Shown here: positions 18,164-42,460 of the stretch, piece by piece
Numbering within the stretch: position 1 is the first letter of the stretch
Layout of the letters: the number at the start of each line of letters is the position of its first letter
The notes under the pieces: generated by a model
Databases searched by the model: none
Seen by the model: the letters and a program-made list of their open reading frames with translations, nothing else
What the model was told of the DNA's origin: nothing
Virus record (IMG/VR): IMGVR_UViG_3300037041_001947
Span: 1-42,460 of that record
DNA length: 42,460 nt
Reading direction: 5' to 3' (one strand)
Source: a virus
Made by a program: the position numbers and the translations under genes

Positions 18164-18392
18164 ATATGTGCAAGTTCCAGGAATTGGATTATGGAAAAAA
18201 GAAATATTTGAAGAAGCAGTGAGAATTGGAGCATTAATCAAACGGACAGACCCATATTTAGTATATGCAATTCCAACAGAGACAAAGTTAATTGGCAAAG
18301 ACCCATCAACAGGAAAAAAATATTCAACACCATTAAAAGTAACAGTTGTATCTCAAAAATGGTACGACTTCAAACGGAAACATAATATCTAA
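18111..18392 (+). CDS. Unknown basic protein
   Basis: 93 residues, basic (pattern KKWERFLKPGKYVQVPGIGL ... KWYDFKRKHNI). It overlaps the previous gene by 53 bases in another frame and touches the dUTPase start (TAATG). The start at 18111 has no SD; a GTG near 18167 is an alternative start that would remove most of the overlap. No function recognised. Confidence 0.5.
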   Translation: MEKLNGTKKWERFLKPGKYVQVPGIGLWKKEIFEEAVRIGALIKRTDPYLVYAIPTETKLIGKDPSTGKKYSTPLKVTVVSQKWYDFKRKHNI

Positions 18393-18823
18393 TGCTCAAT
18401 ATCAAAACATTAAAAAAAATCAAATTACCCAGTAAGTCATATGCAGGAGATGCAGGATGGGATGTGTATTCACAAGAGAGTTATTTACTAGCACCATCCG
18501 AAGCACATAAATTTGCACTAGGTTTTTATATAATTGGAGAAGTCAATAAAGTATACATAACACATGGCAGATCGAGTCTAGCAATTAATCATGGGATTGA
18601 CGTAATTGGAGATGTGATTGATAATGGATATCGTGGAGAAGTATCAGTAGTACTACAGAATAATAGCTTGAATCATTTTAAAATAGCTAAAGGAGATAAA
18701 ATCGCTCAGATATTGGTGCAATACGTACTTGATGATAATATTTTAATAGCTGATGGAAAGACACATTTGATTCCAACGAAAGTTCGAGGAATTAAAGGAT
18801 ATGGAAGTACAGGCAAGACCTAA
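18392..18823 (+). CDS. dut: dUTPase (trimeric dUTP pyrophosphatase)
   Basis: 143 residues with all five motifs of trimeric dUTPases: AGDAGWDVYS (18-27), GRSSLA (59-64), GDVIDNGYRGEV (73-84, catalytic Asp77 and Tyr80), KGDKIAQIL (100-108) and RGIKGYGSTG (132-141, Tyr replacing the usual Phe). It hydrolyses dUTP to dUMP, keeping uracil out of DNA and feeding the nucleotide pathway. It starts in a TAATG overlap and precedes the MazG-like gene. A dCTP-directed variant cannot be excluded. Confidence 0.85.
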   Translation: MLNIKTLKKIKLPSKSYAGDAGWDVYSQESYLLAPSEAHKFALGFYIIGEVNKVYITHGRSSLAINHGIDVIGDVIDNGYRGEVSVVLQNNSLNHFKIAKGDKIAQILVQYVLDDNILIADGKTHLIPTKVRGIKGYGSTGKT

Positions 18824-18833
18824 GGAGGACTAA

Positions 18834-19076
18834 ATGTTTAACTTTCCTGAAATACGGACGGTTAGGTCGACTGAAGAACAGGCGACAAAGGTGATTGATG
18901 AAGTAGTAGAATACAAATTCGACTTCAGCGATGAAGAAGCAGTTGACATTCTACACGCAGCAGAGACACTCATCAGAATCCATTTCAAAGGTAGACCCCA
19001 AGATTTGGAAAGAGTCATTCAACAAACAAAGGAGAAAAATCTCAAACGCGGATATTACACATCAACTTGCTTCTAA
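18834..19076 (+). CDS. MazG-like nucleotide pyrophosphohydrolase
   Basis: 80 residues with one of the strongest SDs in the window (AAGGAGG). STEEQATKVIDEVVEYKFDF and EEAVDILHAAETLIRIHF carry the acidic helix pairs (Glu14/15, Glu23, Glu35, Asp38) of MazG-type all-alpha NTP pyrophosphatases. Small phage members hydrolyse dNTPs. Next to the dCMP-modifying cassette a role in removing dCTP is attractive but inferred. Confidence 0.55.
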   Translation: MFNFPEIRTVRSTEEQATKVIDEVVEYKFDFSDEEAVDILHAAETLIRIHFKGRPQDLERVIQQTKEKNLKRGYYTSTCF

Positions 19077-19083
19077 AAGGTAT

Positions 19084-19105
19084 GCTGCCTACCTCAAAAG
19101 GCAGC
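19084..19105 (+). other. Leader hairpin before the glucosyltransferase-like gene
   Basis: GCTGCCT (19084-19090) pairs with AGGCAGC (19099-19105), 8-base loop, in the 47-base gap. There is no T-run, so it probably marks an mRNA processing or partial termination site between the MazG-like gene and the next gene. Confidence 0.45.
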
Positions 19106-19123
19106 TACAATTAATAAACAACT

Positions 19124-20059
19124 ATGAAAATCGGATTTATAAAATTGGGTCTCAAAACTTATTTTGAAAAATCAGGAACTGGACAAGGTTCAAACCATGA
19201 ACTCGTTGATGTATTTAATATTTTTCAGAATAATGGACACGAATGTCACATGCTAAGTAATAGTGACAAATATTCTCAAATGAAAATTGGTAAATATGAT
19301 TGGATTTTTGTTTTTAATGGATTTGCTCCAACCACTTGGCAAACCAATATGAATATGTTCAAAGGGTCATTGGATTCATTGACATATCTAAAAGAACACA
19401 AAAACATTCCATATGCTTATTTTTGGACAGATCCTCGATATGATATTAGTAAAAATCCATTATTTAAAGAAGTGCCACCAACCGTAATACTGTCTCAAGA
19501 ACCAAATCATTATGCACATTTAGATAAATTGATTTTGTATCATAAAGATGCTCCGTTGATATTTGCTAAAGATAAATTCTTTACAATTATGATGAACGAT
19601 ACTGGCGAAAAAGAACGAAAAAAATCCATACTAAATGTTACAAATTGGCTCCAACATGAAAATTACAAATGTGATGTTTATGGAAATTGGCCTAAAAACA
19701 AAGAATTAAATGCCAGAGACATTCCAGAAAATGAGGTATCAGATTATTTATCAAGATATCTATATGCATTCAATGCAGGTAAAAATCCAAATTGGGTATC
19801 ACAGAAGTACTGGGAAATGGTATTAGCAAATGTGATATGTTTCCATACAAACTATGATATTTCAAATCTAATAATGCACCCAAAAGATTTCAAACGAGTA
19901 CTTGATGGAATCGATGTTATAGATAAAATTGAACAATTACAATCAAATCCTGAATTGTATGAAGAAATAATAAATGCTCAAAAAAATGAATTAAAATCAG
20001 GATATTATACTGGTGAATTTATATATCAAATAATAATGGAGAAAATAAAATGCATATAA
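19124..20059 (+). CDS. DNA beta-glucosyltransferase-like enzyme (T4 BGT-like GT-B)
   Basis: 311 residues. It follows T4 beta-glucosyltransferase along its length: start MKIGFIKLG, a conserved Glu26 (SNHELVDVF), YAYFWTDPRYD with Asp103 at the place of the T4 catalytic Asp100 (FTDIR in T4), a Lys/Arg-rich phosphate-binding segment GEKERKKS, and SQKYWEMVLANV matching the T4 WE motif that holds UDP-glucose. T4 BGT adds glucose to 5-hydroxymethylcytosine. It overlaps the deoxynucleotide kinase by 10 bases. The acceptor could also be another modified base. Confidence 0.7.
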   Translation: MKIGFIKLGLKTYFEKSGTGQGSNHELVDVFNIFQNNGHECHMLSNSDKYSQMKIGKYDWIFVFNGFAPTTWQTNMNMFKGSLDSLTYLKEHKNIPYAYFWTDPRYDISKNPLFKEVPPTVILSQEPNHYAHLDKLILYHKDAPLIFAKDKFFTIMMNDTGEKERKKSILNVTNWLQHENYKCDVYGNWPKNKELNARDIPENEVSDYLSRYLYAFNAGKNPNWVSQKYWEMVLANVICFHTNYDISNLIMHPKDFKRVLDGIDVIDKIEQLQSNPELYEEIINAQKNELKSGYYTGEFIYQIIMEKIKCI

Positions 20060-20550
20060 TAATTGAAGGTGTAGATTGTACAGGCAAAACATCGTTAGTG
20101 AATCATCTTAAAGAAAAATATAATATTGAGGTGGTAAAGTTTTCTCAACCTAAAGGAGACCCATATCAAGAATATATTGATTTTGCTTATTACCACAAAA
20201 CACCTGCAATATTAGACCGTTTTTATCTTGGAGAACTTGCTTATGGACCTGTAAAAAGAGGCAAATCTGGATTGAATAAAGTAAAAATGACAAATATTGA
20301 AGTGGCATTGCATATGCATAACACATTTAATATTTATTGCTTTACTAACGAAGAAGAAATCAAGAAAAGATTCAAAACTCGAGGAGAATCATTTTTGACA
20401 GAAGATGAAATTGCTCCAATATTACACGAGTACAGCAAAGCGTTAAAGGATAGTTTGTTGGTATGGAATAAATTCAATTATTTAGAAGATGGAGAATATA
20501 AACAAATTGATGAAAAAATCGATAAGTGGTTAGAAACATTAAAACAATAA
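20050..20550 (+). CDS. Deoxynucleoside monophosphate kinase (thymidylate-kinase-like)
   Basis: 166 residues. P-loop EGVDCTGKTS (6-15), DRF motif (Asp56-Arg57) and a lid-like Arg-rich stretch KKRFKTRGES place it with thymidylate kinase-type P-loop kinases. Position between the glucosyltransferase-like gene and the hydroxymethylase-type gene (one-base gap, TAAT-ATG) suggests it phosphorylates the modified dCMP, as T4 gp1 does. Plain dTMP kinase activity is the alternative. Confidence 0.75.
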   Translation: MHIIIEGVDCTGKTSLVNHLKEKYNIEVVKFSQPKGDPYQEYIDFAYYHKTPAILDRFYLGELAYGPVKRGKSGLNKVKMTNIEVALHMHNTFNIYCFTNEEEIKKRFKTRGESFLTEDEIAPILHEYSKALKDSLLVWNKFNYLEDGEYKQIDEKIDKWLETLKQ

Positions 20551-20551
20551 T

Positions 20552-21442
20552 ATGAACAACAATTTCAAAAATGTCATTGTTTCAGATAATATAAATGAAT
20601 TGTACAAAGAAGCAATTCTCAATATTGAAAATGAATTTGATTATTTGTCACATCCAAGAGGCAAGCACATCAAAGAGCGATTAGCCACTCAACACGTATT
20701 AACAAATCCAAGAGATTGTTTAGTGACTATTAAAGAGCGCAAGTTAAATTATCAATTTGCCATAATTGAAAAATTTGAATACTTATTTGGAAAACATGAC
20801 CCAATAAGATTAGTGGCATATAATTCAAATCTAAAAAATTATGAAGGCATATACAATTATTTTGATGGAAACTATGCACAACGATTTAATTATTGGTTAG
20901 ACCATATATATCAGATTTTAAAAAATGACCCAGATTCAAGGCAAGCAGTAATTAGTATATATGATACTACAGCAAGACATCAATCGTTAGATATTCCATG
21001 CACTTTGAATTTGCAGTTTTTTATAAGAAATCAAGAATTGAGTCTAATAACTACAATGAGAAGCAATGATTTATTATGGGGATTTCCATATGATGTGAAT
21101 GCTTTTTGTTTCTTATTAGAAGTAATGGCATGTTGGCTCGGTGTAGAAATTGGGACCTACATACATCAAGTAGGAAGTATGCATATCTATTTAGAACCTG
21201 AGGAAAATCATCGCCAGCTCTTATCCTGCACTTCGAGTATTGATGTAGTTAACCAACACAATCCCACTTGGAATTTGGGTTATGAAGACACAAAGAAATA
21301 TTTACCGTTATTCTTTGCTGCAGAAAATATGATGAGAACTTCACCCATGACAAATGAATGGAGAATTCTCGAAGACCAATTGCCTCCTGTATTACAAGAT
21401 TATCTAAAAGCGTTATCACGAAAATGGACCAAAATAAATTAG
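20552..21442 (+). CDS. dCMP hydroxymethylase-type enzyme of the thymidylate synthase family
   Basis: 296 residues. Thymidylate synthase hallmarks line up with E. coli at a constant +4 offset: Arg130 (DSRQAV), Cys150 (IPC, catalytic), Arg170-Ser-Asn-Asp173, His211 and Tyr213. At the place of Asn177, which selects dUMP, it has Asp181 (GFPYD), the substitution that makes T4 dCMP hydroxymethylase (Asp179) choose dCMP. The Cys-to-Asp spacing (31) equals T4, and RSND..GF..D matches. It should convert dCMP to 5-hydroxymethyl- or 5-methyl-dCMP. It overlaps the polymerase start by 19 bases. Confidence 0.8.
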   Translation: MNNNFKNVIVSDNINELYKEAILNIENEFDYLSHPRGKHIKERLATQHVLTNPRDCLVTIKERKLNYQFAIIEKFEYLFGKHDPIRLVAYNSNLKNYEGIYNYFDGNYAQRFNYWLDHIYQILKNDPDSRQAVISIYDTTARHQSLDIPCTLNLQFFIRNQELSLITTMRSNDLLWGFPYDVNAFCFLLEVMACWLGVEIGTYIHQVGSMHIYLEPEENHRQLLSCTSSIDVVNQHNPTWNLGYEDTKKYLPLFFAAENMMRTSPMTNEWRILEDQLPPVLQDYLKALSRKWTKIN

Positions 21443-23745
21443 TAAACATTGAAATTCGAAATGCTTATAATGTCAAAAATGACATTGTAATCTCATATCG
21501 AAAAAACAATAAACTTAAAAAGCTCAAAATTCGAGATTTTAAATGGTATTTTGCTGTGAATGGAAAAGAGTTTGCAAATAACCAATCATTTTTTCAAAGT
21601 TTATTAGACCAAGATTTGGTAGAAATGTACGAACCAGTATTCAATTCCAAATTTGTTAAGGTATATTGTAATAAACAAGGTGGCAAACGAGATTCTGAAG
21701 CTAGAATTGTTTTGGAAATGTTAAAAGAAAAGAATATTAGAACATACGAGGCAGATCTTCCTACTGTAAAAAGATTTATTGCTGATACAGACCTTAAGAT
21801 ATCCGATCAATATGAACCATTATATTTTGACATTGAAACAGATGATACTACTCGAAAAATAGAAATTGGTAAACATAGAATTTTATCAATTGCCGCAGTA
21901 GACAAACAAGGTAATGAGTTTTTCTTTGACGATGCAAGTGAAGAAGATATGCTAGTAAAATTCTTTAACTTGATTTCTAATTATGATGTCTTGATTGGTT
22001 GGAATAGTTCTGGATTCGATTTACCATACATTAAAGGATATACTGAATATGTTTTAAATGCAGATGGTACTGAAGGTAGAATTTGGCATGATGGTAGAAT
22101 GCAATTATATGGATTGGATTTTAATTGGGCAAGTTTACCTACTGTAGACATGATGAATGTCGTTAAAAAGATGTATAAAGAAGGTGCATATCTGAAAAGT
22201 TATTCATTGGAAAGCGTATCACAATATCTTCTCAAAAAAGGAAAAGTGAAATTTGAAGGAAAAGTGATTGATTTGTATAACAACAATCGAGCAAAATTAA
22301 AAGAGTATAACATTAAAGACACCACTTTATTAAAAGAAATTGATGAAAAAATTGGAATGCTTGAATTGTTAGGCAAAGAATGTTCAATTGGAAAAGCACT
22401 AATGCTTAATTTCAAAGGACAATATGTTGGTGAAATTCTTGACAGTATGATTTTAGAAGAGTGTCACAAACAAGAAATATTTGCTCCATCCAAAAAAGGA
22501 CTCAATCGTGAAAGTTATGTAGGTGCGTTAGTGTTAGACCCAGTTGTCGGGTTACATGATAACGTTTACGTATTCGACTACACAAGTCTTTACCCATCAA
22601 TTATTTTAACAAGTAATATCGGGTTCGATACAGTAACAACGCTTGACAACAAAGATGCTATAACAAATCCAGGTAGTGGAATTAAATTTTCTAAAAAGAA
22701 AAAGTCTGTTATTGCTAGTGTTGTAGAGAGATTAGTGAAAGAACGACAAATATATAAAAAACAACGATTAGAGTTTGTCGAAAAAGGATTAATGGATACG
22801 CCTGAATATAAAACTGCTAGAGCAAACGAGGTAATTGTGAAAGAACTCTCAAACTCGATTTATGGAATAATGGGAGACCAAAATCAACGTTATTACTCGT
22901 TAGCAATTGCTGAATCAATCACAAAAACTGGACATTGGATGCTTAAAACCGCTACAGATTTCTTCAATAAACAAAATGGATGTAAAGTAATATATGGAGA
23001 CACTGACTCGGTGTTTGTTAAAGCAGACCATGAATTAAACACGGAAGAACTCTTAAAAGAATATCACTCAGAAATTAAAAAAACACTCAAGGATGATTTC
23101 AATATAGACAATTCATATATCAATCTTAAATATGAAAAGAAGTTTGAATCATTTATTCTGATTGAAAAGAAATATTATGCTGGACTAATAACAGAAATTG
23201 AAGGAAAAAAGGTGAATAAATTTGCAGCTACAGGAATTGATTTAGTGAAAAAGACGACTATTCCAATTGGATATGAATCTCAAAAAACAATTATTGATAT
23301 GATTTTTGAAAAGCAACCAATTGAAAAAATTGAAAACTATATTAAACAACAAAAAGAAAAAATAATGACAGATGAATTTAGTTTTAAGGATATTAAGATT
23401 ACAAGAAGTGTGAGTAGAGATTTATCTGAATATAAAGAAAAAGCCTTAAATCAACCTCATATTAAAATCGCCAAACGGATAATCGAAGAAAAAGGATATT
23501 TAGATTCGAAAGAAATATCATACGTTGTGTTAAATGAAAAACTCCCAACATCAGATGATTCTCGAATATGTGAAGAAAAAGACTATGTTGGAAAATTTGA
23601 TAGAATTTTCTATTGGAATGAAAAGGTATATAATTTAATGGACCGTATTCTAAACATCGCTCTACCTAATTTTGATTGGAATAAATTCTATGAAAAAGCA
23701 CCCAAAAAAGAAAAGGTCGATCCTAATCAACTAAAATTATTTTAA
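21424..23745 (+). CDS. Family B DNA polymerase with proofreading exonuclease
   Basis: 773 residues from ATG 21424 (chosen because the upstream alternative would overlap the previous gene by 85 bases). Exonuclease motifs: FDIET (135-139), GWNSSGFDLP (192-201), YNIKDTTLL (295-303). Polymerase motifs: DYTSLYPS (385-392), KELSNSIYG (473-481), YGDTDS (524-529) and KKYY (582-585). The extreme C-terminus is QLKLF, a bacterial sliding-clamp binding pentamer as in E. coli Pol II. It is the phage replicase; no phage clamp or clamp loader was seen. Confidence 0.92.
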   Translation: MDQNKLVNIEIRNAYNVKNDIVISYRKNNKLKKLKIRDFKWYFAVNGKEFANNQSFFQSLLDQDLVEMYEPVFNSKFVKVYCNKQGGKRDSEARIVLEMLKEKNIRTYEADLPTVKRFIADTDLKISDQYEPLYFDIETDDTTRKIEIGKHRILSIAAVDKQGNEFFFDDASEEDMLVKFFNLISNYDVLIGWNSSGFDLPYIKGYTEYVLNADGTEGRIWHDGRMQLYGLDFNWASLPTVDMMNVVKKMYKEGAYLKSYSLESVSQYLLKKGKVKFEGKVIDLYNNNRAKLKEYNIKDTTLLKEIDEKIGMLELLGKECSIGKALMLNFKGQYVGEILDSMILEECHKQEIFAPSKKGLNRESYVGALVLDPVVGLHDNVYVFDYTSLYPSIILTSNIGFDTVTTLDNKDAITNPGSGIKFSKKKKSVIASVVERLVKERQIYKKQRLEFVEKGLMDTPEYKTARANEVIVKELSNSIYGIMGDQNQRYYSLAIAESITKTGHWMLKTATDFFNKQNGCKVIYGDTDSVFVKADHELNTEELLKEYHSEIKKTLKDDFNIDNSYINLKYEKKFESFILIEKKYYAGLITEIEGKKVNKFAATGIDLVKKTTIPIGYESQKTIIDMIFEKQPIEKIENYIKQQKEKIMTDEFSFKDIKITRSVSRDLSEYKEKALNQPHIKIAKRIIEEKGYLDSKEISYVVLNEKLPTSDDSRICEEKDYVGKFDRIFYWNEKVYNLMDRILNIALPNFDWNKFYEKAPKKEKVDPNQLKLF

Positions 23746-26466: not shown

Positions 26467-26751
26467 TTAGTGGCGGGTTTCGCCGGGTAGGTCTTCGCTT
26501 CGGGCGTAGAGTGAGTCGTGATGGAGTTCTTCCATCCGCATCAGAACCCTTGCGGATTCTGCGAAAGTCCTCAGGCCGAACAAACGATGGTATGCCCGAT
26601 GATGCTCAACAGACAGCATGAAGATATTATCGGGAGCATAAGTGCCACCCAACGAACGAGCCTTATCGTGGTGTCTGGTCAGCTTGTTCCAGGTTTTCGG
26701 TTTGCGTACACTCTTCCGAGCGTAACGCTTGTAGGACTTTTGCTTGGACAT
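26467..26751 (-). CDS. HNH-type endonuclease-like small protein
   Basis: 94 residues from ATG 26751 (SD GAGG five bases upstream; a GTG at 26757 is possible). TRHHDKARSLGGTYAPDNIF and LSVEHHRAYHRLFG carry the His/Asn/His frame of HNH nucleases, basic N-terminus KSYKRYARKSVRKPKTW. Base composition is clearly more GC-rich than the rest of the genome. It may be a mobile or host-derived gene; activity is inferred. Confidence 0.6.
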   Translation of the reverse strand: MSKQKSYKRYARKSVRKPKTWNKLTRHHDKARSLGGTYAPDNIFMLSVEHHRAYHRLFGLRTFAESARVLMRMEELHHDSLYARSEDLPGETRH

Positions 26752-26758
26752 ATACACC

Positions 26759-35414: not shown

Positions 35415-37579
35415 TGATTTATTACTCCTAAGTCAGTCACTTTTGGAAAGTGATAACCTTCTAATATTGGTCTAGACCCTAATGCTTCACCTTGCCATCT
35501 AAATGTGAAGAAATGTCCTTTGTAATTCACATCACTACACACATTCACTCGTTTCGTTAGTGAGGTATTTCCTTGTTTATACGACCCGTCTTCTTCTTTC
35601 ATTAAAAAGACAGAATCACCTCCATTTTTATTATATACCACAATCTTATCAGATATATTCTTTGTGTGTGCTCTATTACCAAATTCTAATTCTTGACTTT
35701 CTAAACTATAAGGTATGGCTTTTCCATCATCTGTAGTACCAGACACATTCAAGTTTGCTAAATATCCATCATATTGTGTGGCTAATATATCCGCTGGTGG
35801 AACACCAAATTGTGTGGTTTGTGCAATTCTGATACCATATGTAAATACGCTCCAGTTCTGATCGCGAGGTGAAAACTTTAATACAACATTTCTGTAACTT
35901 CTTGTGTCTTCAGGACCAAGTGTAAGTGTTACATCACCAATTGAAAAATAAACATTGTACTCATCATTCCACGAATATACTTGTAACGGATCTGCTATTT
36001 CATCAATAAAATCTTGTACGCCAATTCTTGAAATGTTTTGTGGGAATGTTCCATCTGTTTGATAAATTCCATTTCCAGAATAAAAGTACACCATTCCTAA
36101 ACAACTCGTCACTGCTTCTTGTGATACTGCTCCAACATTAAAAATGTTCTCAGAATCAACTGTTTTTGAAATAGTGTTTAATCTATACATCGCATTATTT
36201 TTAAACACTAATGTCAATGTAGATGTTTTTGCAAAAGCTGTAATGATTCCACCATCATCAGGATTTATATCAATCCAATCTCCTGTAGTAGCATCTGTAT
36301 TCCATGTTATAAAAGGAGAAGCAACTGGGTCAACAATAGAAGAAAAATATATTCTGCTAGGAAAACCACCTGAATTAGTTGGTCCTTTGTTTACTCCACT
36401 CACTAATATTCTGTTATTTGAAATAATAATTAAAGATGGTACTAATGGAAATACTTCACTCCACCATGTTGGGTTTGAACTTGGTGATTTGTTTAAATTA
36501 TTATTTTGTAATGATTGATAAAAACTCGATCCGCTCCAAACAAATGCTGCTGTCGTATAATTTGCTGTAGAACTCCATGGAGTCGAAGATGAAATATCAT
36601 ATGGAAAAATACAATTTGTTGTAATCCATGTTTTTCCAAAATCAACAGATGATTTCATTGAATTGACTCCATTGACAACAAATACAGAACCATTTAAATT
36701 CGCAAAACGCATCTTTGCAGTTGGACTGCTAGTATAATATGAGTTGCTAACAAAATAATTTGAGCGCAACCATCCACTATTGTAATAATAAATTGACCCA
36801 TATAACAACGAACCATCATTTATTTCAAATCCAACTACATTTTTCTTGTCTGTTTTATTTAAAAAACTATAATTACCAAGTGGAGCAAGATTATAAGCGG
36901 TAGATGTATCAACTATTCTTTCAGCAAAATACAATGAACCTGCATCATCACTCCAAGTTCCACCTGAATCAGATGATGTTTGTGCTACTCCACCTGCATA
37001 AGTTGCTGCATTATTATATGCCCAACGTATATAAGTTTCTGTACCATCACCACCTGGATATGTAATAACAATAGCATAAACCGTTCCTGCTGTAAGAGTG
37101 GTCAATCCTGGAGGTTGAGGTAATGACATTGTAAAACCATCTCGGATATTACCGGCTGGAAAAGTCCAAGTGGCCGATCCTAAAACTGTACCTGTTGGTT
37201 TACCAGCGGATGTAGTTTGTAAACTAACCGTTACATTACCAACTGCTTCTCCAGTTAAGCGTAATTGTATATTTATAGATGTGAGACGTTCTTGTCCAGT
37301 ACTTGGTGTAAATGTTTGTGCTTTAAATACTGCACCATATATCTTTGCATCAGTATTTGAACTAATCCGATTTGCTTGCCCATCAGTTGAAAGTACAGCA
37401 ATCTGTTGATTATGAATATTTCCTTTTCTAACAATGGCAGCTCCAATTACATCAGAAAAATCTACATTTACAGCATTTGATACGGAATTTGCTGGTGTTA
37501 AGGCATTGTTAACCGCTGATTTGGAAATTCTACCTCCAGAAAAATCTCTTACGGTAATTGGATTTTGTAATTCACTCAT
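35411..37579 (-). CDS. Tail nozzle-like protein
   Basis: 722 residues. The opening ITVRDFSGGRISKSAVNNAL and the spread of short beta blades fit the beta-propeller nozzle or stabilisation proteins of podoviruses. Residues about 75-225 (VFKAQTFTPSTGQERLTSIN ... YAIVITYPGGDGTETYIRWA) are an inserted jelly-roll carbohydrate-binding-like domain. Its place before the ejection proteins supports a tail-tip role. Assigned by gene order and N-terminal motif. Confidence 0.6.
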   Translation of the reverse strand: MSELQNPITVRDFSGGRISKSAVNNALTPANSVSNAVNVDFSDVIGAAIVRKGNIHNQQIAVLSTDGQANRISSNTDAKIYGAVFKAQTFTPSTGQERLTSINIQLRLTGEAVGNVTVSLQTTSAGKPTGTVLGSATWTFPAGNIRDGFTMSLPQPPGLTTLTAGTVYAIVITYPGGDGTETYIRWAYNNAATYAGGVAQTSSDSGGTWSDDAGSLYFAERIVDTSTAYNLAPLGNYSFLNKTDKKNVVGFEINDGSLLYGSIYYYNSGWLRSNYFVSNSYYTSSPTAKMRFANLNGSVFVVNGVNSMKSSVDFGKTWITTNCIFPYDISSSTPWSSTANYTTAAFVWSGSSFYQSLQNNNLNKSPSSNPTWWSEVFPLVPSLIIISNNRILVSGVNKGPTNSGGFPSRIYFSSIVDPVASPFITWNTDATTGDWIDINPDDGGIITAFAKTSTLTLVFKNNAMYRLNTISKTVDSENIFNVGAVSQEAVTSCLGMVYFYSGNGIYQTDGTFPQNISRIGVQDFIDEIADPLQVYSWNDEYNVYFSIGDVTLTLGPEDTRSYRNVVLKFSPRDQNWSVFTYGIRIAQTTQFGVPPADILATQYDGYLANLNVSGTTDDGKAIPYSLESQELEFGNRAHTKNISDKIVVYNKNGGDSVFLMKEEDGSYKQGNTSLTKRVNVCSDVNYKGHFFTFRWQGEALGSRPILEGYHFPKVTDLGVINQ

Positions 37580-38727
37580 ATAAATCTTTGATAACGTCTG
37601 TTAGTGGGATCGTATTCTTCTGAGTACCAACCTTTGTCCCATAACTGTTTTAATTGTTCAAAATATGCTTGATACTGATACTTGACTCTATCCATTGAAA
37701 AATTCTTTATTGCCCATTCTCGAATTGCTTTTCTGTCTAACTTATCTACATTTTTAGCAGCCCACATCATTTCACCCATTGTACGGGTTCGATATCCATT
37801 AAATCCATCTATAACATTTTCAGCAAAACATCCCCAATCTGTCGTAATAACAGGTGTTCCACATAACATTGCTTCAATACTCACTCCTTCAAATGGACCA
37901 ATATATTGTGTTGGAACAAAAACCGCTTTTGCTCTGCTCATTAATCTTCCACGTTCTTCTTTTCCAACCGTTCCTAAGTATTCTAAATGGTCTCCTGATA
38001 TTTCAAATTCTCTACTTGTCAGGACATTTCCTTCATGTTTGATTATTCCTTGACCAGCAAGTTTAAGTTTGCCACCTATTTTTCCAACCACTTCTGCTGC
38101 GATATGAACACCTTTTCTGCTAACCATTCTTCCAATATATAAATAGTAATCGTCTTGTTCTTCGCTGTATGGAAAATCTTTTTCATCAAAATAATTTGGA
38201 ATCACAGAATCATAATACTGGCCATTTTCTATTTTCTGTAATCCATAAACATTGTGCATCCAAGCATAACTCTCAAAAATCTTGAATGAACTAAAAACTC
38301 CTTGATACCCAATTCCAAATTCTACTATCTGAAATTCTTTTAATTGGTCAGCAATTGGTTTTTGACAACTTCCACCAATTAAACAAATAATATCAGTTTG
38401 CTGCGCTCGTTTTCTTATTTCTGTAGCAGCATTATTATTCATTGTCTGCCAGTACGGTAGGGTTTCATTCCATTCGATTGGATAAAAATCTTTTGTAATA
38501 TCTGTAGCACCAAAATATTTAATCTGATCTTCTTTAGATATACAACTCACAAATTCATCAACAGGAGCATCTGTCTTTTCTCCACCTGCATATAAAAATA
38601 CTTCATGACCTAGAGACTTCATCATTTTACAAAACTTCAATGTCTTCTGTGTATAAGCGCAGGACATGTATTGTTCTGTCACTTCAGTATGAGGTAAATT
38701 TACTACATGTAGTCTAAAATGTTCCAT
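37576..38727 (-). CDS. Family GT4-like glycosyltransferase
   Basis: 383 residues from ATG 38727. Residues about 185-300 (YYLYIGRMVSRKGVHIAAEV) hold the GT4 donor-domain start with YIGRMVSRKG, and PFEGVSIEAMLCGTPVITTD carries the Glu-rich EX-E nucleotide-sugar motif. The N-terminal acceptor domain has LKFCKMMKSLGHEVFLYAGG. It overlaps the methyltransferase by 14 bases and the nozzle gene by four. It sits amid tail genes, so it may glycosylate a virion protein or alter the host surface. Confidence 0.8.
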   Translation of the reverse strand: MEHFRLHVVNLPHTEVTEQYMSCAYTQKTLKFCKMMKSLGHEVFLYAGGEKTDAPVDEFVSCISKEDQIKYFGATDITKDFYPIEWNETLPYWQTMNNNAATEIRKRAQQTDIICLIGGSCQKPIADQLKEFQIVEFGIGYQGVFSSFKIFESYAWMHNVYGLQKIENGQYYDSVIPNYFDEKDFPYSEEQDDYYLYIGRMVSRKGVHIAAEVVGKIGGKLKLAGQGIIKHEGNVLTSREFEISGDHLEYLGTVGKEERGRLMSRAKAVFVPTQYIGPFEGVSIEAMLCGTPVITTDWGCFAENVIDGFNGYRTRTMGEMMWAAKNVDKLDRKAIREWAIKNFSMDRVKYQYQAYFEQLKQLWDKGWYSEEYDPTNRRYQRFI

Positions 38728-39289
38728 AATAGCATTTGCCGTAGCATTCATTCTCACCCATTAATGTTTCTACTGTTCCTTTTCCACCTAACCATTTGTT
38801 TAAATTTTCTTCTGTGAGTTGATGTGGATGACCTTCATTCACTTCTGCATCAATCCATTCAAATATTCGCACTTTACCTGTTAACTTTGCTTTTCTAATG
38901 ATTTCTTCAGGATTCTTTGTATGCTGTAAGCAATTGTATATCCATACTTCGTTTGCTGTTACCAGGATTGACTCAGGGACATCTTCTGCTGCCATCTTGA
39001 TATACTCTATATTAGCAATCCAATATCTTTCTTTAACCCAATTTGGATAGTCACAAGGGTCAACAACTATGCCTTTTCCATTTTCTAATTTTAGGAGTAA
39101 AGAGTTAGGTCCACCTCCTATGTCCACTACTGTTTTTCCTTGTAAATCGATAATAAACGGAATACCATCTCGTTTGGAAAATTCAATTCCCATTCTCTTG
39201 GCATAAGTAAGCTGTTTGAGTTCTTCACCAAGTGTGTTAGTACAAGTACCCCACCAGTTCTTTTCAAATTTTTGTGCTTGTTCCCACAT
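38714..39289 (-). CDS. Class I SAM-dependent methyltransferase
   Basis: 191 residues. KTVVDIGGGPNSLLLKLENG is a clear SAM-binding motif I; IVVDPCDYP supplies motif II-like acid; VWIYNCLQHTKNPEEIIRKA is the post-motif region of small-molecule or sugar methyltransferases rather than DNA methylases (no NPPY). It starts in a TAATG overlap with the LamG protein and is coupled to the glycosyltransferase. A sugar O-methyltransferase acting with that enzyme is plausible. Confidence 0.7.
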   Translation of the reverse strand: MWEQAQKFEKNWWGTCTNTLGEELKQLTYAKRMGIEFSKRDGIPFIIDLQGKTVVDIGGGPNSLLLKLENGKGIVVDPCDYPNWVKERYWIANIEYIKMAAEDVPESILVTANEVWIYNCLQHTKNPEEIIRKAKLTGKVRIFEWIDAEVNEGHPHQLTEENLNKWLGGKGTVETLMGENECYGKCYYGTF

Positions 39290-40707
39290 TATGATAATCC
39301 ATTAATTGTTTTGACGCTTGCAATCGCTAATCCATTCACCGTTTTCACCGAAGCCTTAGCTAAACCGTTTATGGTTTTGATTGAGGTAGTAGAAAAAGGA
39401 TACTGGAGTCCATTGCCTGAGTTGTAAAGGGAAGATATTTCTGTAGTGGTTAAAGCACGAGACCAAATACCAATTTCATCTATGGCACCTGCCACTGCGG
39501 TGTTATTGTTAGTGCGACAACCTAATCCAAAATCACTATATACAGGAATAGTAGTGGTAGAATCGGTTACAGCTGTGGCATCCAATGCACCATTTAGATA
39601 TACTTTAATTGTATCGGCAACTGTATCTCTAACAAAAGCAACATGATACCAGGTATTGTCGCTCAAATCAGTTCCCCCTACTATGTTTGGATTATTAGTT
39701 CCGTCATATAATGCAAATCGAAGTTTTCGTTGTCCACCAATAGACCCATAAAACCAATAATTGTTTTGTGCTGATGCATGACTATAAACGAAAGCATTTT
39801 CAATACCATTAGTATCAGTGCTATTAACCCAACCAGCACAGGTAAATGAACCAGACAAGCCTGTTGTTATAGTTGTTTGTATCTTATCCGTTTGTGCATT
39901 GAATCCTGCTCCCTGTTCTATCTTTCCATTTGCTGTAGAATAAGTAATTGATGTGTCTGTTCCGTTAGCAGAACCAACCGCATCATTTGAGTTGCCTTCA
40001 AATTTATAATAATGGTCTATTGAAGTAGTTAAATCATCCGTAAATGGATATTGATTACCACGTCCAGCATTGTAAATTTTGCTTACGTCATCTGACGATA
40101 AACGCCTATTCCACATACCAACTTCATCAACAACAGCAGAGGCAAACAAAAATCCATTTACAGTGGCACCTATGCAAAAACCATCTGAAGTAGTGCTACC
40201 TGTTTGAGTTGAACCAACTGTTCCAATAGAACTCCCATTTATATAACCTTCTATCGTACTACCGTCAAAAGCCATTGCAAAATGATACCAATTTGTAGTA
40301 CCTAAAGTTACAGTGCTATTAACTGTATTGATATTGACGCCAGAAATATCTCTACCAATTCTAATCTGCCTTGTTCCGCCGTTGTAGTTATATTCAACAT
40401 AATTTGCTATACCACTTGCACCGTATCGGTGTTCAAAGAACCTGGGGTTTCCTGAACTTATTTCAGTATTCATCTTGACCCAACCAGTTAAGGTTATTGC
40501 ACCAGTTGTAATCCCATAACTGTCCGTGGTATATAAAAGTCGTTTGTCGGCATTAGAAGCTCCAAAGTCAGCACCATTATTAATCTTAGCGGTGGCGTAA
40601 CTAACGGTATTAGTATTGGTAAGTGTCCTACTTCCAACACTATCACTGGCGTTGCCACTGCTTTCATCAAGTTTATAGTATGCTACTAGGTTGTCTGATA
40701 AGGCCAT
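39289..40707 (-). CDS. Twin LamG-domain receptor-binding protein
   Basis: 472 residues with two concanavalin-type LamG domains (about 1-220 and 225-440), each containing LVAYYKLDE/DHYYKFEGN-like starts, WYHFAMAF/WYHVAFVRD and VDEVGMWNRRL/IDEIGIWSRAL. A short C-terminal tail repeats the unit VKTVNGLA three times. LamG domains bind carbohydrates, so this is a likely adhesion protein of the tail. It lies next to the collagen-like fibre gene. Confidence 0.75.
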   Translation of the reverse strand: MALSDNLVAYYKLDESSGNASDSVGSRTLTNTNTVSYATAKINNGADFGASNADKRLLYTTDSYGITTGAITLTGWVKMNTEISSGNPRFFEHRYGASGIANYVEYNYNGGTRQIRIGRDISGVNINTVNSTVTLGTTNWYHFAMAFDGSTIEGYINGSSIGTVGSTQTGSTTSDGFCIGATVNGFLFASAVVDEVGMWNRRLSSDDVSKIYNAGRGNQYPFTDDLTTSIDHYYKFEGNSNDAVGSANGTDTSITYSTANGKIEQGAGFNAQTDKIQTTITTGLSGSFTCAGWVNSTDTNGIENAFVYSHASAQNNYWFYGSIGGQRKLRFALYDGTNNPNIVGGTDLSDNTWYHVAFVRDTVADTIKVYLNGALDATAVTDSTTTIPVYSDFGLGCRTNNNTAVAGAIDEIGIWSRALTTTEISSLYNSGNGLQYPFSTTSIKTINGLAKASVKTVNGLAIASVKTINGLS

Positions 40708-40708
40708 T

Positions 40709-42460
40709 TTATGTATGTGTTACCCAGGAAGGGCTTGGATTAAAGAATAAATTATCGCCTGTACCTGACGTTCCCATACCAACGACTCTCTGTAAGGCAT
40801 CGGCAGTAGTTGGGGCGGTCAAGGTCACATCACCCGCTGTTTCAGAAAGGAAGACCATTTCATTTATTGTTAGTGTCGGGAATACTGCATCAGCTCTAAC
40901 CATTCCGAATAAAAGCATTTTTGTTGCCTGGGTGTCGCTGGCCGCTAAAACACAAATACCGAGAACTCCACGTCCGTCACCACTTGTAGTTGTAATTGCG
41001 TTAGCGTCTGCCAAAACCCATTTGTTAGAAGTTCCAGAAGGTGAGCAAATATCTCCGAAAGCTAAGGTTGCTCCAGCTGTTCCGTCTACTACTAATCCTG
41101 AATATTTACCATCTGCGGAGAGGCTGTTGTCGAAACTAAACCCAGCGTTTTCACCAAGTCCTACTTCGGTTGTTAAGGGGTTAGCAAAAGATGCTCCGGT
41201 AGCTCCAGTGTTTCCAAGAGAACCCGTCGGACCTGTTGTTCCTTGTGCTCCAGTAGGACCTGTTGTTCCTTGTACTCCGCTTGGACCTGTGCTTCCTGTT
41301 GCTCCAACTAATCCAGCAGAACCTGTAGCTCCTGTTCCACCAACCGTACCTGCTCCAGTAGCGCCAGTATTACCTAACGGACCAGTAGAACCTGTAGCTC
41401 CAATTGGTCCTGTACTTCCTGTTGTTCCAGCAGGGCCTGTTGCTCCAGTTGCACCTGCAGGAGCAGTTACGGCAAATGTGGTTTCAACGTGAGAAGCAAA
41501 AGCTGTTCCTTGGTAAACAAAAGTCATTGTTCTATTTGCTTCAGTCGTTGTCATCAATGGTGTGATAACAATTCTATCCGTTGTAAGTAATGAATAAGTA
41601 GCATCTGGAACTGTATATTGGACTATACATTCCTGTGGTGCTGCTGATGAGGTAGAACTAATATCAGCAGATACTTGAGTTGTAAACAATATAGTTGCGA
41701 CACCAGCATCAGTAATTTTAGAAACTTGGAATTTTACTGTATTTGTTCCAGTAGCGTTATTAACATAAGCCCAACAATGGAATGTCCAGTTACCACCGGG
41801 TATTGTAGTCTGACCGGGAACCATAACAACTGTTGCATAAGAATCAACAGGAGCTCCGTTCGTATCGCCAACTTGTGCGATTACTGATTCATTTACTTGA
41901 ACTCCTCCAACAGGAACTCTAGTTAGTTTTTCATAATCGGTTGTGATAGAAACAGAGGCTCCAGCAGCTTCGTTGGTTAGAGCTGATGAACCGATAAGAG
42001 TAAGAGTAGATGCAGCAACTGTACGAATAGCCCAAGTAGCATTGTTACCTACATTAGTAGCACCTGTAACTTTAATCTTCATTCCAGCAAGAAAACCATC
42101 AGTAATAAAACTTCCAGCATCAGCTCTGGTAATCGTATCTGGAGTAGAAGCTGTAACGAAAGCTATTGTAGTATTATTTGTAATTGTAGGACCAGTGATG
42201 TCAGAAGCGACATTATCAAAATAAAGAGTAAGACCAGAAATGTTTCCTTGAGGACCTGTGGCTCCGGTAGCTCCAGTTGAACCGGTGTTTCCAACTCCAG
42301 AGCCAGTAGGACCTACAGGTCCTGTTGCTCCAGTTGCTCCTGTCGTTCCGGCACCTGTAGCACCTGTTGAACCAACAGATCCGGTTGCTCCAGTTGAACC
42401 AGTTGCACCGACAAGTCCTGCACTTCCAGTGGCTCCAGTTCCACCGACAGTACCTGCTCC
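40709..42460 (-). CDS. Collagen-like tail fibre protein, middle and C-terminal part
   Basis: The frame is open to the window end and joins the segment at 1-521. In the joined protein (about 710 residues), residues 22-199 are collagen triplets, 200-459 a beta-sandwich domain ([15 protein letters not shown]...), 460-549 a second collagen block (for example [19 protein letters not shown]), and 550-710 a C-terminal domain ending [15 protein letters not shown], seen in phage tail fibres. An internal ATG at 42082 exists but the upstream frame is clearly coding. Likely a trimeric fibre with two stalks. Confidence 0.85.
42336..42460. repeat. Terminal direct repeat, right copy
   Basis: Identical to bases 16-140. 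It marks the overlap that closes the molecule. Confidence 0.85.

Follow-up and report, generated by a model that had tools for sequence, protein, structure and literature searches.

Does a small phage make glycosylated cytosine in the manner of T4? The question is raised by six consecutive plus-strand genes (18392-23745) of the IMG/VR virus record IMGVR_UViG_3300037041_001947, whose whole stretch of 42,460 bases is called the window below. The original prediction read them as a T4-style cassette for glucosylated 5-hydroxymethylcytosine (hmC), composed of genes for a dUTPase, a MazG-like pyrophosphohydrolase, a glucosyltransferase, a deoxynucleotide kinase, a thymidylate-synthase homologue and a family B DNA polymerase. 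All six open reading frames (ORFs) were found where they had been placed. At the core of the cassette is an Asp-type pyrimidine hydroxymethylase beside a glycosyltransferase (GT) related to the T4 beta-glucosyltransferase (BGT), on which alignment, profile search, structure and gene neighbourhoods agreed. The observation is real and its interpretation mostly sound, being in part supported, and we consider it likely that the cassette makes DNA carrying glycosylated hmC.

The hydroxymethylase is the 296-residue thymidylate-synthase homologue. Its best PDB match was the CMP hydroxymethylase MilA (E 5e-24). In an alignment with T4 gp42, SPO1 gp29 and others, Cys150 was the invariant nucleophile, and the selector position (Asn177 in E. 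coli) was occupied by Asp181 in the window, by Asp in T4 gp42, and by Asn in SPO1 gp29 and phage Colly_1. Thr151 of the window takes the place of E. coli His147; SPO1 gp29, annotated as a dUMP hydroxymethylase, has Asn next to its catalytic Cys. A previous study found that these two positions are the best at telling synthase homologues in contigs with modified cytosine apart from all others; Asp occupied the selector mostly in phage contigs whose cytosine is modified, and Asn in unmodified ones (PMC8670742). A canonical thymidylate synthase was set aside for this protein, as Asp181 and Thr151 replace Asn177 and His147. In a phylogenetic tree, T4 gp42 belonged to a clade apart from the window enzyme (support 100/100), and no grouping with the gp42 lineage was obtained. 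The window enzyme fell instead in a broader clade holding SPO1 gp29, phage G, HTVC119P, Enterococcus phage 9183, Agathobaculum phage AB434P2 and others (97/94). Its residues predict a dCMP activity, that is, a function like that of gp42 in a protein of the SPO1/phage G branch. Thus, the label "T4-style" held for the combination of an Asp-type enzyme with a BGT-like GT, and did not hold for descent from T4.

The tie between the GT and T4 BGT became apparent at the level of the family. Taken alone, the 311-residue window protein matched PF13524 at 4.3e-5, just below the curated cut-off, matched the "beta-glucosyltransferase" profile phrog_7922 weakly (0.0023), and had no match in the PDB. Family alignments were needed because no matches came from searching viral contigs with one protein at a time, be it the GT, the synthase homologue, the polymerase or the AB434P2 GT. 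Starting from one phage match, in Pseudoalteromonas phage XG4, and from a fecal contig in which the match lies beside a synthase, the family alignment reached 26 viral loci at first and 80 later, in partly overlapping sets; an exact-pattern scan across 85,000 genomes of bacteria and archaea yielded no relative. Searched against the PDB, a 10-member family profile placed T4 BGT at the top of three matches (7.2e-7), the sole other molecule being a fucosyltransferase (4e-4). A structure search of the 311-residue protein had been suggested with the original prediction, and T4 BGT headed the lists for two predicted models. The model of the window GT was built from 10 sequences and had a predicted local distance difference test score (pLDDT) of 51; its better C-terminal half matched T4 BGT with a Z of 14.3 over 154 residues, T4 AGT coming second at 12.5. 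For the AlphaFold model of the relative L038 (20 sequences, pLDDT 88; 28% identical to the window GT over 269 columns), the Z for T4 BGT was 21.9 over 312 residues, and the next other glycosyltransferase scored 18.5. Arg195, Arg269 and Glu272 of T4 BGT, which we take to be donor-side residues, correspond to R165, K228 (a conservative change) and E231 in the window, all invariant in the family alignments. We place the window GT in the T4 BGT superfamily, with a GT-B fold and T4 BGT as its nearest solved structure. This phage GT family appears largely undescribed in the literature searched, which excluded most subscription journals.

The gene neighbourhoods linked the two enzymes. Counted by sequence cluster, 17 of the 18 with enough flanking DNA had a synthase homologue no more than 5 kb from the GT, cluster L010/L040 being the exception and two more being too short to judge. 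Automatic reading of the motif gave Asp for the partner in each of 57 loci, and reading by eye gave it in L038 too; Asn was found in none. In the tree, these partners belonged to two separate hydroxymethylase lineages, which argues for a functional bond and not shared descent alone. As a reverse control, loci were collected via the synthase homologue and held this GT in 0 of 15 cases, and the window homologue was matched by only 1318 of 50,697 phage records. The pairing is therefore no by-product of a common gene.

Which sugar would be transferred was less clear, and the glucose of the original prediction did not carry over to the family. Every cluster with a donor module in reach had, together with the GT, a HAD-type gene and a nucleoside triphosphate (NTP) transferase or cytidylyltransferase gene; in Enterococcus phage 9183, one donor-type gene is annotated as nucleoside-diphosphate-sugar pyrophosphorylase-like. 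Since the relatives mostly travel with such genes, the GT family is not tied to UDP-glucose. A real, if tentative, possibility is then that cytosine is hydroxymethylated but receives a group other than glucose, such as a pentose or another host-activated group. A 561-residue protein of Shewanella phage Thanatos, whose cytosine bears a deoxypentose, shares the domain pair of a 559-residue XG4 fusion (PMC12838424), although the two were likened by their described domains only. In the window, however, no nucleotidyltransferase or HAD donor-synthesis gene was found, so that the donor is more simply a common sugar nucleotide of the host. Only the window and viral contig L050 (IMGVR_UViG_3300003873_000080) lacked these genes despite sufficient flank, and the simplest reading is that both draw on a host sugar nucleotide. 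Glucose is thus a default guess for the window and not a result, UDP-glucose being the simplest host donor.

Several points weigh against glycosylated hmC itself. The tree paired the window enzyme with SPO1 gp29, which serves the synthesis of 5-hydroxymethyluracil (hmU) (93/86), and the substrate assignment consequently depends on a single residue together with the context of the gene. The enzyme could instead make 5-hydroxymethyl-dUMP as in SPO1, with the GT decorating hmU. Its best phage BLAST matches were several SPO1-like enzymes, and the Asn-type phage Colly_1 has an annotated beta glucosyl transferase beside its synthase. Yet the selector residue of the window is Asp, Thr stands beside the catalytic Cys where SPO1 has Asn, and all readable hydroxymethylases beside this GT family are of the Asp type; we regard hmU as unlikely. 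On the GT side, the window protein by itself gave only the weak profile matches and the poor model described above. Moreover, the alignments disagreed on the counterpart of T4 Asp100, presumably the catalytic base: one gave the invariant D103-P-R105, and a profile-based one gave E91. D103, in the invariant D-P-R motif, is probably the catalytic Asp. Some of the loci behind the pairing are duplicates or near-copies of each other, hence the counting by cluster. Finally, cytosine replacement could be partial: a gp56/MazG profile search of the window ORFs gave no match, and with no recognisable dCTPase, complete replacement cannot be claimed.

It was also conceivable that the GT acts on protein, cell wall or host, the synthase homologue just supplying nucleotides. 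GT-B enzymes are versatile, and a second GT is encoded among the window structural genes (Table 1). However, DNA glucosyltransferases topped both structure lists and the GT recurs with the hydroxymethylase across phages, which makes a target other than DNA quite improbable. A dCMP methylase role for the synthase homologue, with 5-methylcytosine as the product, is very improbable: a passage of PMC8670742 citing earlier work does state that thymidylate synthase becomes a dCMP methylase through the Asn-to-Asp change by itself, but the nearest solved relative is a hydroxymethylase, a GT partner requires a hydroxyl acceptor, and the Pfam thymidylate synthase match stops at position 223 of 266, before the synthase C-terminus.

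Homologies, active-site residues and the conserved pairing were computed here; we infer which reactions take place, which sugar is used, how far cytosine is replaced and what purpose this serves. For glycosylated hmC, the Asp-type hydroxymethylase would convert dCMP to 5-hydroxymethyl-dCMP, which the kinase and host enzymes would bring to the triphosphate, and the family B polymerase would put the hydroxymethylated nucleotide into DNA. There, the BGT-like enzyme would move a sugar onto the hydroxymethyl group from a nucleotide donor, probably a host metabolite and most simply UDP-glucose. The dUTPase, and perhaps the 80-residue protein, would remove competing nucleotides. DNA modifications of this kind are known to protect against host nucleases, and we assume the same purpose here.

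Profiles clearly supported the dUTPase, the kinase, the synthase homologue and the polymerase (Table 1). The MazG-like assignment of the 80-residue protein did not find such support: its residue pattern fits, but it had no supporting match in Pfam, PHROGs or NCBIfam, no relative among phage records or viral contigs, and a score of 4.9 bits in the gp56/MazG search. As to the tight linkage of the last four genes, the 10-base overlap of the GT and kinase genes and the 1-base gap between the kinase and synthase-homologue genes were confirmed, and the 19-base overlap with the polymerase gene applies only if its ATG is at 21424; the longest ORF, starting at 21358, gives 85 bases. The original prediction had recognised no denA- or denB-type nuclease, and none was seen among the window ORFs scanned, which were not all of them and were not searched specifically for denA/denB.

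Table 1. Features of the window (IMGVR_UViG_3300037041_001947, 42,460 bases)
Feature	Position	Strand	Match or basis
dUTPase, trimeric type, 143 aa	18392..18823	+	PF00692 1.3e-20, TIGR00576 2.9e-25
80-aa protein, possible MazG-like / all-alpha NTP pyrophosphohydrolase	18834..19076	+	residue pattern ExxE...ExxD only
GT-B glycosyltransferase, compact 311-aa form, phage family related to T4 DNA beta-glucosyltransferase	19124..20059	+	
Deoxynucleotide (thymidylate-type) kinase, 166 aa	20050..20550	+	phrog_761 1e-19, PF02223 2.4e-6
Thymidylate-synthase homologue, 296 aa, putative dCMP hydroxymethylase	20552..21442	+	PF00303 1.9e-19, phrog_5131 3e-48
Family B DNA polymerase	21358..23745 (start 21358 or 21424)	+	PF00136 1.8e-56, phrog_262 9e-79
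HNH endonuclease-like	26467-26757	-	phrog_740 0.0045, weak
Second glycosyltransferase, GT4-like	37576-38757	-	PF00534 8e-15, phrog_3408 3e-87
Methyltransferase-like	38714-39289		weak match
LamG / concanavalin-type lectin domain	39289-40707	-	PF13385 1.4e-41, strong

Compared with the T4 hmC pathway, the cassette likewise places an Asp-type hydroxymethylase and a BGT-related transferase near a family B polymerase, T4 genes 43, 42 and b-gt also being close together. It differs in the branch of its hydroxymethylase, in a GT of 311 residues that is about 24% identical to BGT, and in a setting of about 42 kb in which no gp56-type dCTPase was found and no second DNA glucosyltransferase was recognised. 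Enterococcus phage 9183 and Agathobaculum phage AB434P2 share the kinase, the Asp-type synthase homologue and the GT family, with a dUTPase in 9183; unlike the window, both encode HAD and nucleotidyltransferase genes. Contig L050 runs from a kinase through an Asp-type synthase to a GT, and no donor-synthesis gene was found there either, but its GT has 408 residues and is followed by ORFs that resemble, by eye, a cytosine-C5 methyltransferase and MazG. Thanatos shows a similar hydroxymethylase-type gene with sugar genes, and has a fusion of the XG4 kind; it differs in encoding its own UDP-xylose pyrophosphorylase and in a sugar that is reportedly attached straight to cytosine, which is not T4-like glucosyl-hmC (PMC12838424). 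The 5-carbamoyloxymethylcytosine system found by MetaGPA also combines an Asp-type synthase homologue with an enzyme acting on the hydroxyl, there a carbamoyltransferase where the window has a GT (PMC8670742).

Other genes were noticed around the GT in related loci. A second conserved gene, kin of a 368-residue XG4 ORF and perhaps a second transferase, adjoins it (L003:4238-5344, L010:4184-5311, L011:1414-2544), and directly or shortly downstream of it are ORFs that resemble, by eye, cytosine-C5 DNA methyltransferases (L050:7606-8847, L003:5363-6580).

The two window ends share an exact match of 125 bases (16-140 = 42336-42460) within a collagen-like tail-fibre gene, and joining them at this repeat gave a single open frame of 728 codons across the joined stretch. 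The genome is therefore probably nearly complete at about 42.3 kb, with the caveat that a match between parts of a repetitive gene may be deceptive; the IMG/VR listing puts the record among those without end repeats. The repeat points to a genome that is circularly closed or terminally redundant. The portal protein had no match in the phage record collection and a weak P22-type profile match, on which the description of the genome as podovirus-like rests, and the polymerase gave matches of only about 24-26% identity. Outside the cassette, we noticed a GT4-like gene with an adjoining weak methyltransferase match in the structural block, a lectin-type domain in the tail region, and an HNH-like match between modules on the opposite strand.

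What is new here is a probable route to glycosylated hmC that pairs a non-T4 hydroxymethylase with a BGT-related enzyme, a combination scattered across many unrelated phages. With it, hmC glycosylation would reach beyond T4-like phages to a small one without close portal or polymerase relatives in the collections searched, and the BGT-related family recurs beside Asp-type hydroxymethylases in Enterococcus, Agathobaculum and Pseudoalteromonas phages and in many environmental contigs. We tentatively propose that the 311-residue GT belongs to a branch of DNA glycosyltransferases that is specific to phages, separate from T4 BGT and repeatedly paired with different hydroxymethylase lineages; most members might use a phage-made donor, so that the family would write at least one hmC glycan that has yet to be described, the window being a stripped-down form served by a host donor. 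New DNA-glycosylating enzymes could be sought among the members of this family, and such phages would be expected to have DNA that withstands many restriction enzymes and calls for particular care in sequencing and in phage work.

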